In this document: positions 8,787 through 13,428 of the stretch, one piece after another | Position numbering within the stretch: position 1 is the first letter of the stretch | Layout of the letters: each line of letters starts with the position of its first letter | From: Prolixibacteraceae bacterium | GTDB lineage: Bacteria; Bacteroidota; Bacteroidia; Bacteroidales; Prolixibacteraceae | Length of the DNA stretch: 36,050 bases | Direction of reading: 5' to 3' | Assembly (NCBI GenBank): GCA_016931385.1 | Contig: JAFGEV010000397.1 | Span: 1 to 36,050, forward strand | Position numbers and translations under genes: made by a program | Notes under the pieces: model-generated | Told to the model about the DNA's origin: nothing | The model's database searches: none | The model's input: the letters and a program-made list of their open reading frames with translations, nothing else

Positions 8787-9944
8787 ATGTGTAAAAATTT
8801 ATTGGTATTCTTTTTACTGGCAATTTCCGGCTTGTTGTGTTTTGCGCAACAGGAAAAGGTAATTGAAGACTTCAAGCCCTCGTCGGTTAACCAGCCAGGC
8901 AAAGATTACCCACAGGTAAATTCTGAAGGACGGGTGCGTGTTCAGATTTCCGCTCCTGAAGCCAACAAGGTTCAACTCGACATCAGCGCTGTTAAGTACG
9001 ACCTTGTAAAAGATGAGAACGGTATATGGACAGGTGAGTCTGCCCCACAGGATGAAGGATTTCATTACTACCAGTTATGGGTTGACGGCGCCGCAGTTCC
9101 TGACCCAAACAGTCTTTATTTTTATGGTGCAAGCCGCTGGGGAAGCGGTATAGAAGTCCCGGCAAAAGATCAGGATTTTTATGCATTAAAGAATGTACCT
9201 CACGGTCAGGTTCGGGAGCACCTTTACTATTCAAAAAGCGACAGCAGTATGCGTCGCTGTTTTGTTTACACACCTCCGGGATACGATCAGAACCTTGAAA
9301 AGAGATATCCTGTACTTTACCTTCAACATGGAGGAGGTGAAGATGAAACAGGCTGGTCGAATCAAGGGCATGCCAACCTCATTATGGACAACCTGATTGC
9401 CGATGGAAAGGCCCTGCCTTTCATTATTGTTATGGATAATGGCACATGGCGTATGCCAAGACGAGAAAGAGGCGAACGTCCTACGGGTTCATGGCCTCCA
9501 ACCGGTTGGGCCGATGGCTTTATGAATACTTTGCTGAACGACATTGTTCCAATGATTGACAGCAACTACCGTACACTTGCCGACCAACAGCATCGCGCTA
9601 TGGCAGGCTTATCGATGGGGGGTATGCAAACACGGATGATTACCCTTGCACATCCTGAACTTTTCTCCGCTGTGGGTATGTTCAGCGGTGGAAGTATCAG
9701 CCCTGAGGATATTGAAAAATCGCCTGATTTCAGTAAAAATATAAAACTGTTGTTTATAAGCTACGGAAGCCGGGAACTTGAAAACCCGAGGAGGGGCCCC
9801 TGGGGCGATCCGAAGGAGAATACCGAGAAACTAAAAGAAGCTGGCATGAATGCCCATTTCTATGTTTCGCCTCAAACAGCACACGAATGGCAGAGCTGGA
9901 GACGGGGCCTGTATCAGTTTGCACCCCTTTTGTTTAAATACTAA
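8787..9944 (+). CDS. CE1-type esterase with N-terminal CBM48/E-set domain (copy A)
   Basis: 385 aa with a signal peptide ending near FAQQ. Residues ~45-135 form an early-set Ig/CBM48-like domain ([25 protein letters not shown]). Residues ~145-385 form an alpha/beta-hydrolase of the esterase D/CE1 group that includes feruloyl and acetyl-xylan esterases. The nucleophile is Ser276 in GLSMGG, the histidine is His366 in [10 protein letters not shown], and the oxyanion region is [11 protein letters not shown]. The triad acid position (GSRE) carries Glu where CE1 usually has Asp. It is the first of four consecutive paralogues, 45 bp after GH3 and 3 bp before copy B. The likely role is removing ferulate or acetate from hemicellulose oligosaccharides. 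Ester specificity cannot be read from sequence. Confidence 0.87.
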
Positions 9945-9947
9945 TCA

Positions 9948-11063
9948 ATGAAATATATGAAAAAGCAAATAATCATTTTAATAGTAACATTGGTTTTTTC
10001 AGGCAGTTTTTGCTTTGCTCAAACCGATCAACAAGAAATTAAAGAAGATTTCAAACCATCATCGACTAACCAACCGGGGCGCGAATATCCAATGGTAAAC
10101 TCGCAAGGTTGCGTGCGTGCACAAATTATAGCACCCGATGCAAAATATGTTCAGCTTGATATTGGCGGGGTGAAATATGACCTGGTAAAAGATGAAAACG
10201 GATTGTGGACTGGTGAATCGGCCCCTCAGGATGTTGGTTTTCACTACTACCAGCTAAACATTGACGGCGCCTCGGTGCCCGATCCCGGTAGCATGTTGTT
10301 TTTCGGTGCATGCCGTTATGGTAGTGGTATTGAAGTACCTACACCCGATCAGGATATTTTCGCCGTGAAAGATGTTCCGCATGGCCATGTGCATGAAATT
10401 TATTTTCCATCGGAAAGTACAAATACTTCACGCAGGGCTTTTGTGTACACTCCGCCGGGCTATCAAAATGAAAAATCGAAACGTTATCCGGTTCTATACC
10501 TGCAGCACGGTTATTGTGAAAACGAAACGTCTTGGCCTTTGCAGGGGCGCGCCAACTTTATCATGGACAATCTGATTGCCGAAGGCAAAGCCCAGTCTTT
10601 CATCATTGTGATGACCTATGGTATGACCAACGAAATTAAATTTGGCGGACTGCGCAATTTCGACATCAAACCATTCCAAACCGTTTTGGTCGATGAGTTG
10701 ATTCCTTACATTGATGCCAATTTCAGGACCCTTGCCAACCAGGAAAACCGTGCAATGGCAGGCTTGTCGATGGGAGGTTTCGAAACAAGGCTCATTACGC
10801 TGAACCGCCCTGATGTATTTTCATATTACGGACTTTTTAGTGGCGGCGTTTACAAACCTGAGGATATTAAAGATCACAAAAACCTGAAACTGGTATTTAT
10901 TAGTTGTGGCAGTAAAGAGCGCCCCGACGGGGTAAAGAGTGCCGTTGCCGATTTAAAAGAGGAAGGTTATAATGCAGTATCCTACATTTCGGAAGGTACG
11001 GCCCATGAGTTCCATACCTGGCGCCGCAGCTTGCACCAAATGGCTCAGCTTTTGTTTAAATAG
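9948..11063 (+). CDS. CE1-type esterase with N-terminal CBM48/E-set domain (copy B)
   Basis: 371 aa and clearly a close paralogue of copies A and C; the N-terminal domain is nearly the same ([34 protein letters not shown]). The signal peptide ends near CFAQ. Two in-frame ATGs are possible, at 9948 and 9957; the second gives a more usual MKKQ start. The nucleophile is Ser274 (GLSMGG) and the histidine is His353 ([10 protein letters not shown]). GSKE stands at the triad-acid position. The loop between the oxyanion strand and the nucleophile differs from copy A: the Trp/Pro/Arg-rich insertion after MDNG in A is replaced by a shorter segment ([10 protein letters not shown]). This may change the acyl or sugar pocket (inference). 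It starts 3 bp after copy A, so the two are likely translationally coupled. Confidence 0.87.
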
Positions 11064-11067
11064 AAAT

Positions 11068-12231
11068 ATGAAACACCTAAAATTATACATTACAGTTGCT
11101 GCTCTTGTTTTGAGCAGCACTGTTTTTGCCCAATCAACCAAAGTAAAAGAGGATTTTAAACCATCGGACGTTAACCAGCCAGGGAGAGCTTTTCCGCAGG
11201 TAAACTCACAGGGGTGTGTACGTGCACAAATTTCAGCACCTGAAGCAAATATGGTTCAGCTCGATATTGGTGGTGTAAAATACAAAATGGTAAAAGATGA
11301 AAACGGCGTATGGACGGGTGAATCAGCCCCTCAGGATGAAGGGTTTCACTATTACCAGTTGAACATTGACGGGGCATCTGTTCCTGACCCCGGAACAAAA
11401 TACTTTTATGGCGCCGGGCGCTGGGGAAGCGGAATTGAAATACCGGCCCATGATCAGGAATTTTATGCATTAAAGGATGTTCCTCACGGTTCAGTTGGTG
11501 AGCATTTATATTTCTCGGATATTACCCAAAGGTGGAGGCGCTACTTTGTGTATACACCACCGGGATATGAAGAGGATACAGATAAACGCTATCCGGTCCT
11601 TTACCTTCAGCATGGAAGCTTTGAAGACGAAACAGGATGGTCTGCGCAGGGAAAAGCCAGCTTCATCCTCGACAACCTGATTGCTGATGGGAAAGCCCTG
11701 CCAATGATTATTGTTATGGATAACGGGTACGCCTATAAACCCAAAACGGCTACATCTGGTTCCGGACGTCCTGTTTCAGCATTCGAAGAAGTCATGATCA
11801 ACGAGATCATCCCGATGATCGATTCGAAATTCCGCACCCTGGCAGATAGAGAGCACAGGGCCATTGCAGGCCTGTCAATGGGAGCCAATCAAACCATGCG
11901 TATCATTATGAACAACCTCGATACCTTTTCAAATTATGGTGGATTTAGTGGTACTTCAAACTATCCCAGCTCCGATGAAATTGATCCGGCAACCTTTTTA
12001 GGTGGCCAATTCAATGATGGCAAAGCACTCAACAAACAAATTAAAGTTTTCTGGCTCGGACTGGGATCAAAAGAACCCAATCCATTCCCCGGATCCGTTG
12101 GGGCCTTTCGTAAAATGTTGGAAAAGCAGGGAATCAAATACGTTTACTATGAATCGCCGGAAACTGCCCACGAATGGCTAACCTGGCGAAGATCATTGCA
12201 TCAATATGCTCAGTTACTTTTCAAAGATTAA
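11068..12231 (+). CDS. CE1-type esterase with N-terminal CBM48/E-set domain (copy C)
   Basis: 387 aa from the ATG at 11068. The frame stays open upstream into copy B, but this ATG lies 4 bp after the copy B stop and opens a classic signal peptide ([10 protein letters not shown]...STVFAQ). Domain plan matches A and B: CBM48/E-set domain, then CE1 hydrolase. The nucleophile is Ser270 (GLSMGA, with Ala where A and B have the second Gly), the histidine is His368 ([10 protein letters not shown]), and GSKE is at the acid position. The region between nucleophile and histidine is longer than in B and contains [16 protein letters not shown]. By eye it is closest to copy A in the N-terminal half. A recent tandem duplication followed by active-site loop divergence would explain this (inference). 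Confidence 0.87.
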
Positions 12232-12249
12232 TTTCAAAATATTTAAAGT

Positions 12250-13428
12250 ATGTTTTGTAGACTAACGTTGCTGATACTTTTATTTCCCGCACTATGTTAT
12301 GCGCAGCAAGCCAATGTAAACCTCGACTATAATCCGCAAAAGGATACCGAAGGGCTCACACCGTTTAGTGCCCCCCTGAATTCACCTGAGGTTCATGACG
12401 ACCACACCGTTACTTTTCGGTTAAAGGCTCCGGAAGCTAAGGAAGTTAAGATAACCGACGGGGCAATATTAACAGCCCTTGGCCGCGGACGTGAGCCTAT
12501 TTCTCTTACAAAAGGGGATGATGGAATATGGAGTGTAACTGTTGGACCTTTTATACCCGATATGTATGCCTATCATTTTAATGTTGATGGGATGCAAATC
12601 TGCGACCCAGGCAATACAATTGCTGCTTTTACAGCCATGCCACCCTACAGTCAACTGATTGTGCATGGCGATGGTCCTGCATACTACGATGCGAAAAATG
12701 TTCCGCATGGCAATGTTACCCGGCACATCTATCATTCCAATGTTACCAATGGTGAAAGGGAGATGTATGTTTATACGCCGCCCGGATATGATATTGAAAG
12801 AGAATACCCTGTACTGTACCTGGTTGGTGGTAGTGGCGAACTCCCATCGAACTGGATTTACGACGGCCGTGCCAACCTGATCATGGACAACCTGCTTGCT
12901 GAAGGAAAGGCTGAACCCATGATCATTGCCATTCCTAACAATCAGGTCATTCACCGTAATCACCCAAAACATGTTGAATTGACCTTCGATATTTTTGAAA
13001 AAGAATTGAGAAATCATGTCATTCCTCTGGTCGATGAAAATTACAGCACAATTAAATCTCCAAAAGGCAGGGCTATTTCAGGTTTATCGATGGGTGGGCG
13101 CCACAGCATGTTTATCGGTTTCAGGTCTCTTGATTTGTTTGCCAATTTTGGAATACTAAGCGCCGGGGATGTTAATGCCGAAACTTCGCTTGAGTACTTT
13201 CTTAATGATCCCGATGTTAACAAAAAAGTAGAATACCTTTTTGTTGGACAGGGTACAGAAGAAGCCAATGGCTTTATGGGTAGGCGCTGTATTGCCTTGA
13301 GTGAGGCTTTGACCAATCATAACATCGAACATGAATATTATGTTGGCGGACATGGTGGCCACGACTGGTCAACCTGGCGCCACCTGCTTTATTACCGTTT
13401 TTTACCTAACTTATGGAGAAATCAATAA
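12250..13428 (+). CDS. CE1-type esterase with N-terminal E-set domain (copy D, divergent)
   Basis: 392 aa with a signal peptide ending near CYAQQ. It has the same two-domain plan as the three genes before it but is much less similar, with only scattered blocks shared ([30 protein letters not shown]). The nucleophile is Ser280 (GLSMGG) and the histidine is His371 (GGHGGHDWSTWRH). Its acid position is GTEE, again Glu. The N-terminal domain carries an extra insertion (ILTALGRGREPISL). It probably handles a different acyl position or sugar from A-C, having split off earlier. It starts 18 bp after copy C and ends 10 bp before the carboxylesterase, so all five esterase genes read as one operon. Confidence 0.85.
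   Translation: MFCRLTLLILLFPALCYAQQANVNLDYNPQKDTEGLTPFSAPLNSPEVHDDHTVTFRLKAPEAKEVKITDGAILTALGRGREPISLTKGDDGIWSVTVGPFIPDMYAYHFNVDGMQICDPGNTIAAFTAMPPYSQLIVHGDGPAYYDAKNVPHGNVTRHIYHSNVTNGEREMYVYTPPGYDIEREYPVLYLVGGSGELPSNWIYDGRANLIMDNLLAEGKAEPMIIAIPNNQVIHRNHPKHVELTFDIFEKELRNHVIPLVDENYSTIKSPKGRAISGLSMGGRHSMFIGFRSLDLFANFGILSAGDVNAETSLEYFLNDPDVNKKVEYLFVGQGTEEANGFMGRRCIALSEALTNHNIEHEYYVGGHGGHDWSTWRHLLYYRFLPNLWRNQ

Follow-up and report, generated by a model that had tools for sequence, protein, structure and literature searches.

The esterase row and its genes

We analysed a 36,050-base stretch of DNA (the window) that is the entire contig JAFGEV010000397.1 (C31) of the Prolixibacteraceae bacterium assembly GCA_016931385.1 (G000; 448 contigs, 86% complete), with a focus on four consecutive genes for CE1-type esterases, designated A, B, C and D, in a putative polysaccharide utilization locus (PUL). 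As stated in the original prediction, which was made from the sequence of the window, the four genes are tightly packed (3-18 bp apart). They are complete open reading frames on the + strand that occupy positions 8787-13428 with spacers of 3, 4 and 18 bases, and all of them encode the esterase alpha/beta-hydrolase domain PF00756, which scored above the curated Pfam cut-off (E 2.3e-22 to 2e-19). The features of the locus are listed in Table 1.

Table 1. Positions of the esterase genes, their type-specific loops and selected neighbouring genes in the window
Feature	Position	Strand	Remarks
GH5 C-terminal piece with type IX secretion tail	2-589		Cut by contig start; resembles xyloglucanases
GH3 with CBM6-like and GH43_C2-like parts	4902-8741	+	Directly upstream of A
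Copy A, CBM48-CE1 esterase, 385 aa	8787-9944	+	Predicted triad S276-E330-H366; type A, no solved member
A-type loop, aa 217-245	9435-9521	+	G219, W221, P238, W241 and F245 invariant in 20/20 aligned A sequences
Copy B, CBM48-CE1 esterase, 371 aa	9948-11063	+	Predicted triad S274-E324-H353; type B, with wtsFae1A (6RZO)
B-type loop, aa 223-243, TYGMTNE(I/V)...	10614-10676	+	20-21 residues in 51 B-labelled rows
Copy C, CBM48-CE1 esterase, 387 aa	11068-12231	+	Predicted triad S270-E336-H368; type C, with Bacint_01039 (6NE9)
C-type loop, aa 218-239, DNGYA(Y/F)...	11719-11784	+	17-23 residues in 25 C-labelled rows
Copy D, CBM48-CE1-like esterase, 392 aa	12250-13428	+	Predicted triad S280-E338-H371; deep separate type, LVGG
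D-type loop, PNNQ(V/I)(I/V)HRN(H/N)PxHxELTFDxF	12934-12996	+	One length in 19/19 D-labelled rows
Type-B carboxylesterase (PF00135), fifth cassette gene	13439-14998	+	Pfam; cluster recurs after D
ECF-type sigma factor and FecR-type anti-sigma factor	18893-20647	+	Likely regulators
SusC-like TonB-dependent receptor (plug domain) and SusD-like protein	20730-26081	+	

The common domain plan that had been proposed for the four proteins holds for the hydrolase domain. Their sequence matches to solved CBM48-CE1 proteins also extend across the N-terminal domain, but the Pfam scan detected a CBM48 match at E<=0.001 in none of the four copies. For B and C, matches of this kind to solved members indicate an N-terminal beta-sandwich on the CE1 domain. 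The structure model of A (mean pLDDT 77.4, with loop residues 225-233 below 50) aligned best to 6RZO over residues 26-384 (Z 37.0, root-mean-square deviation 4.2, 338 residues). Residues 45-380 of D matched residues 39-377 of 7B5V in a phmmer search, and the structure model of D was poor (pLDDT 57.6). The N-termini of all four proteins are hydrophobic, end in (F/Y)AQ and, judged by eye, resemble Sec signal peptides that lack a lipobox; they are similar to each other and not, as had been claimed, the same. The Pfam scan found a secretion tail on none of the four esterases, which, together with the signal peptides, suggests a periplasmic location.

A to D are predicted serine esterases with an intact Ser-Glu-His triad, which was located by alignment to 7B5V using the positions given in the available part of PMC8040265. 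The triad is present in all four copies and at least 95% conserved within each type (defined below). The oxyanion-loop motif is LQHG in A, B and C, each with a conserved histidine. The HG motif is absent from D, which has LVGG instead, and the first glycine of this motif is invariant in 16/16 aligned D sequences.

Divergence of the four copies

The original prediction regarded A, B and C as nearly alike and D as divergent. The latter view is borne out by the identities of D to the other copies (31.9-35.1%), which make it the most distant of the four, but the former is not. A, B and C are only 59.4-60.4% identical to each other overall. Identity is higher between their N-terminal parts (68-71%) than between their hydrolase parts (53-55%), and their longest identical DNA runs are 12, 17 and 19 bases. 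Synonymous divergence (dS, NG86) among them was 1.7-3.4 where computable and was otherwise returned as -1, taken as saturated. Judging from these sequence comparisons, A, B and C are old paralogues. As had been described, the copies do differ from each other between the second central strand and the nucleophile.

Rows of four had been thought to exceed what such loci usually carry, which is partly right. Among 296 Bacteroidota genomes, including the present one, a match at E<=1e-75 was found in at least 28, and another run of four occurred in G250; as six candidates were scored for most genomes, these counts are lower bounds. In the close-relative sample, 4 of the 60 other genomes contained runs of 4, 5, 6 and 9 matches, one broken copy being entered twice in the run of nine. 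Runs of at least four full copies were present in 21 of 80 fetched loci, with a maximum of seven, although these loci were chosen by similarity to A.

Four orthologous types

The 80 loci are the best of 559 relatives found by scanning genome contigs with A as the query, and their best segments are 59-82% identical to it. Their sources include many metagenome-assembled genomes (MAGs) labelled Bacteroidales or Prolixibacteraceae, isolates of Prolixibacteraceae, Flavobacteriaceae and Marinilabiliaceae, and some MAGs labelled Ignavibacteria, KSB1, Planctomycetota, Verrucomicrobia or Rhodothermia. Maribellus sediminis and Draconibacterium sediminis (loci L008 and L064) are examples of cultured carriers. 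The relatives in L024, L041, L062, L063, L068 and L080 (64-75% identical) lie in MAGs labelled KSB1, Planctomycetota classes or Verrucomicrobia, which suggests inter-phylum transfer or binning errors; most of them were unclassified in the broad tree described next, and L080 was labelled B.

The 80 loci, the window and five further stretches of its own genome (86 sources) yielded 296 CE1-type domains. A FastTree analysis of 252 of these domains plus five solved chains, with types defined by clade cuts, gave 44 rows of type A, 51 of type B, 25 of type C, 19 of type D and the smaller types X, Y, Z, F, M and N, and left 53 of the 257 rows unclassified. In a 56-row maximum-likelihood tree (IQ-TREE, quick mode), A, B, C and D each formed one group together with outside homologues, with SH-like approximate likelihood ratio test (SH-aLRT) supports of 98, 98, 99 and 100%, respectively. 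The structure of wtsFae1A (6RZO) fell inside B and that of Bacint_01039 (6NE9) inside C, whereas A and D contained no solved member. The group of B and 6RZO was separated from A, C and D with 98% SH-aLRT for whole proteins and 99% for the CE1 domain alone; the group of C and 6NE9 received 99% for whole proteins, 83 for the CE1 domain alone and 88 for CBM48 alone. The bit scores agree with these placements: B scored 523 against wtsFae1A vs 377 against 6NE9, and C scored 608 against Bacint_01039 vs 410 against 6RZO. Over the mature protein, the best outside orthologues are 85% (A), 94% (B), 84% (C) and 89% (D) identical. Forcing A, B and C of the window into one clade cost 651 log units and was rejected by the approximately unbiased (AU) test (p-AU 1e-144). 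A to D are thus best described, as far as such trees can tell, as four ancient orthologous types of the CBM48-CE1 family and not as products of local duplication.

The types differ in a loop that follows the second central strand near the predicted active site and, in the alignments, appears as a hallmark of each type (Table 1). In type A, it has a variable Pro/Arg-rich middle and mostly ends in WPPxGWADGF, and its length ranges from 23 to 52 residues in the 44 A-labelled rows. Loop lengths were taken between fixed alignment column limits, and the letters were inspected in all A and D rows, 14 of the 51 B rows and 14 of the 25 C rows. The available part of PMC8040265 describes the corresponding flexible loop as disordered in DmCE1B (residues 493-508), and according to that of PMC7815789, it is where Bacint_01033 and Bacint_01039 differ most visibly. 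By analogy, the loop may border the cleft and help to choose the substrate. Loops of the same type are common to different genera and families, which is at odds with a recent origin of the loop differences in the window.

In the spirit of the original prediction, the row could have arisen when genes of this locus were recently duplicated in tandem, with the active-site loop changing quickly afterwards. Such a history could account for the adjacency, common strand and common plan of the genes, for the lower similarity of the hydrolase part than of the N-terminal part, and for a slight excess of identity between copies from the same locus (0.6-1.5 points, permutation p 0.0005-0.019). It is contradicted by the high or non-computable dS, the presence of outside members in each type group, the AU test, the within-type conservation of the loops and the occurrence of the same order in other species, and we consider it extremely improbable. 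Taken together, the dS values, trees, AU test and synteny refute a recent tandem duplication as the source of A, B and C and leave room for minor conversion at most. Local gene conversion was also considered as an explanation for the similarity of the N-terminal domains and rejected: copies within a locus are on average closer than cross-locus copies only by the small excess given above, so that conversion would have been at most a weak force.

Conserved order of the row and its fifth gene

The order of the four types is strongly conserved. Among the 80 loci, A precedes B in 25 of 26 cases, B precedes C in 21 of 21 and C precedes D in 13 of 13, and 106 of all 107 pairwise comparisons are consistent with the order A-B-C-D, the exception being L039. 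These counts refer to types that share a run; near-copies are included, so the cases are not independent. In L039, one CE1 copy (L039:12397-13668), within a run of nine CE1 matches, is split into two open frames.

A carboxylesterase of the same cluster as that of the window starts no more than 600 bases after D in 12 of the 15 D loci with visible room; within this distance, it is missing in L011, L020 and L023. The best solved-structure match of the carboxylesterase in the window is a fumonisin B1 esterase.

The genus-mate G001 carries, in order, A-B-C-D, the carboxylesterase, a CE6-type esterase, a GH27 remnant and a LamG protein. The GH27-type gene beside the cassette is complete in the window and a remnant in G001 (L087:15871-16440; 97 of 678 residues aligned). 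The upstream neighbours differ, with GH51 and a SusC/SusD-like pair in G001 at the place of GH3 in the window; GH43, GH97, GH3, GH95 and a hybrid two-component regulator are located 10-28 kb upstream of the esterase row on the G001 contig. According to the original prediction, a tree that placed A, B and C with different outside homologues would indicate independent acquisition. The tree has this shape, but the conclusion is unwarranted because the A-B-C-D order is kept across loci and because G001 has the same order and downstream neighbours.

A probable second array and conflicting trees of the positions

The genome contains 17 CE1 matches in total, including the four in the window. Contig C46 (L001; 8,424 bases) carries, after a CE1-CBM48-CE1 fusion (F), copies of types A, X, B and C and ends within a Y copy, and contig C210 (L002; 6,446 bases) begins inside a Y copy and continues with Z, D, a DUF3237 protein and GH51. 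Of the two Y pieces, the cut start on C46 has a 79% match in the Y copy of L039, which is also nearest to the cut remainder on C210. An exact overlap of at least 12 bases between the contig ends was not found. Both contigs thus break off within a Y copy. They probably represent one array, longer than the row in the window, of eight genes with nine CE1 domains.

The four positions of the row do not share one common history. When the trees of A, B, C and D from 11 loci were compared using whole proteins, all 12 cross tests rejected them (p-AU <0.001). The conflict persisted in 10 loci for whole proteins (p-AU at most 0.037) and, with the C46/C210 row left out, for CE1 domains alone (10 loci, p-AU at most 0.026; 12 cross tests). 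It probably arose because cassettes exchanged single members with each other. In this genome, B of the window is nearest to B of the sister G001, whereas A, C and D of G001 are nearer to the C46/C210 copies. Moreover, the genome contains two type-B N-terminal domains: between the genes at 9948-11063 of the window and L001:5609-6733, the CBM48 domains are 53% and the CE1 domains 74% identical. We refrain from proposing that the complete B gene was swapped between the arrays, as the nearest copies had suggested: the two B versions diverge chiefly in the N-terminal domain, for which the CBM48 tree (see below) fits both replacement and fast evolution.

Gene neighbourhood, substrate and proposed function

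The row is flanked on the left by the GH5 piece, a GH29-type alpha-L-fucosidase, GH97 and the large GH3. On the right, it is followed by the carboxylesterase, a GH27-type melibiase, a LamG protein with a secretion tail, the ECF sigma factor and FecR, and further on by the SusC-like and SusD-like proteins, DUF4959/5126/5000 and DUF4998 proteins, GH2, GH43-CBM6 and GH31. The SusC/SusD-like pair, four CE1-type esterases and carboxylesterase thus lie on one contig, all on the + strand, and the gene content of the locus agrees with the definition of an esterase-genes-enriched (EGE) PUL given in the available part of PMC7815789 (more than two known or putative carbohydrate-esterase genes), which also includes up-regulation by feruloylated arabinoxylan. 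The locus would be a longer relative of such PULs.

In 33 other loci that contain at least two of A to D, recurrent neighbours are the carboxylesterase (21 loci), CE6/SASA (16), GH3 of the same cluster as in the window (15), GH43 (11 for the cluster found in the window, with further GH43 clusters besides), GH51 (9), GH9 (8), a PET-hydrolase-like protein (8), GH97 (7), GH8 (6) and GH127 (4), and GH51 also lies next to the second array; the flanks of these loci are unequal, near-copies are included, and one representative per cluster was scanned with Pfam. GH31 and GH97 are present in the window, and GH31, GH97 and GH95 on the contig of G001. In the accessible text of PMC4491172, the side-chain enzymes of the Bacteroides ovatus corn-xylan PUL include GH31, GH95 and GH97, and a GH31 alpha-xylosidase can be xylan-specific. 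The best matches of GH43 are chains named xylan beta-xylosidase. The neighbours in other loci and on the sister contig point to decorated arabinoxylan as the substrate; we rank it first, with xyloglucan second as a live rival.

We hold with reasonable confidence that the row is an ancient, ordered four-type CBM48-CE1 cassette that strips different esters from arabinoxylan in the periplasm. The cassette would have been inherited as an ordered unit, often with the carboxylesterase behind it, in hemicellulose-utilisation loci of Bacteroidota, mainly in Prolixibacteraceae and their relatives, and the arrays would have grown and shrunk by gain and loss of whole types. The SusC/SusD pair would import feruloylated and acetylated arabinoxylan oligosaccharides, on which the four esterases could act side by side in the periplasm. 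B is expected to take off feruloyl and C mainly acetyl groups because of their nearest assayed relatives, wtsFae1A and Bacint_01039; according to the part of PMC7815789 available, the latter had very little feruloyl-releasing and the second-highest acetyl-releasing activity of four enzymes. A would probably remove a feruloyl-type ester in another sugar context. Once the esters are removed, the debranching and backbone hydrolases of the locus could act.

Several observations weigh against this interpretation. With respect to the substrate, GH10, GH8, GH51 and GH115 domains were not found in the proteins of the window, which covers this contig only. The GH5 fragment best matches Cel5D, followed by an exo-xyloglucanase, a cellulase and a xyloglucanase, and GH31 is nearest to the alpha-xylosidase BoGH31A, followed by other alpha-xylosidases. 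We take BoGH31A to be a xyloglucan enzyme. GH29, GH2, GH3 and GH43, a set known from xyloglucan loci, are also present on the contig. The cassette might accordingly serve a xyloglucan-utilisation locus, with the esterases freeing xyloglucan oligosaccharides of acetyl (or rare phenolic) groups. This alternative is set against the origin of the characterised relative of C, an arabinoxylan-directed PUL, the naming of that of B as a ferulic acid esterase, the presence of CE6, GH8, GH51 and GH43_C2 neighbours in other loci and of GH95 and GH97 in the sister, the xylan-specific GH31 activity described in PMC4491172 as far as available, and the xylan beta-xylosidase matches of GH43. We therefore regard it as rather unlikely, yet worth serious consideration.

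Other points concern the types, their history and their biochemistry. The label A joins two separate clades of the FastTree (support 0.89 and 0.97), the X clade has a support of 0.46, and the 53 unclassified rows count here as well. The border between A and X is soft because A-like loops occur in 7 of the 14 displayed X rows. In the tree based on CBM48 alone, B is not one group, though a one-group B was not rejected (p-AU 0.165); this result fits replacement of the N-terminal domain of B as well as fast evolution. In the comparison of the four positions, the Shimodaira-Hasegawa test left 1 of the 12 cross tests unrejected (0.059 for whole proteins from 10 loci and 0.073 for CE1 domains), the tree of the joined data was not rejected by the B data (p-AU 0.198, 11 loci), and hidden paralogy within types could have produced the conflict. 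The esterase activity of A to D is predicted from sequence, and their periplasmic location from signal peptides judged by eye. The role of the loop in specificity is a published suggestion, and PMC7815789, in its available part, calls the contribution of the loop unknown.

As another alternative, the copies could be redundant, with all four catalysing one reaction and more copies simply providing more enzyme. Operon-like spacing (3-18 bases) suggests joint expression, but the types diverged long ago and keep their own loops and residues, and the structurally solved CE1 relatives of a single Bacteroides PUL do not have the same activity (PMC7815789, available part). We consider this explanation improbable. 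Specialised, non-redundant esterases, as originally proposed, are still the best reading, while the history proposed for them is not.

More tentatively, the row may be modular, with one fixed specificity class at each position and with members exchanged between cassettes position by position. A and D would then have acyl or sugar-context specificities that have yet to be described, and D, which has lost the oxyanion-loop histidine and has a fixed-length loop of its own, would form a new functional CE1-fold subgroup; we think this somewhat doubtful. If it is true, genomes assemble their ester-removal sets from different versions of the individual positions. In the examples considered, assayed esterases within one polysaccharide locus differ in activity without a stated rule, and orthologous types in a fixed order would provide a testable one. 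A and D may have new ester specificities, useful for cereal fibre breakdown; otherwise the row may be redundant.

Comparison with known systems

The esterase family and esterase-rich PULs have been described before. What is new here is the ordered row of four types, the existence of long arrays, and types A and D, which have no assayed relative among the proteins compared. A literature search by titles and abstracts, in which subscription papers were mostly not covered, returned no description of an ordered A-B-C-D row.

In the available part of PMC7815789, the EGE PUL resembles the window in having more than two carbohydrate-esterase genes, including CBM48-like CE1 genes, and its Bacint_01039 belongs to type C. 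The loop near residues 220-240, which differs among the copies of the window, is also the most conspicuous difference between its two CE1 structures. However, its five esterase genes are of several kinds and interspersed, whereas the four CE1 genes of the window form an unbroken ordered row followed by the carboxylesterase, and neither type A nor type D is represented among the solved members. The enzyme wtsFae1A (6RZO), named a ferulic acid esterase, is a type B member (98% SH-aLRT) with 69% identity to B over the mature protein; in the window, B belongs to a row of four genes.

PUL 17 of Dysgonomonas mossii (PMC8040265, in its available part) encodes DmCE1A and DmCE1B, which share the CBM48-CE1 fold, the Ser-Glu-His triad and a flexible loop at the same place. 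It also has a CE1-CBM48-CE1 fusion like that on C46, but its three CE genes have separated locus tags and do not form a CE1 row. The solved DmCE1 domain 7B5V is 48-54% identical to A, B and C and 34% identical to D. The B. ovatus PUL-XylL for complex glucuronoarabinoxylan (PMC4491172, as far as available) shares GH31 and GH97 (and GH95 with the sister locus), GH43 and GH3; in contrast to it, the window has additional GH5, GH27 and GH29 genes, and GH10 and GH115 were not found on the window contig. Finally, BD-PH_PUL30 (PMC8165983, likened here from its description in the available part) is a xylan PUL with five predicted CE1/CE6 genes together with GH43 and GH51.

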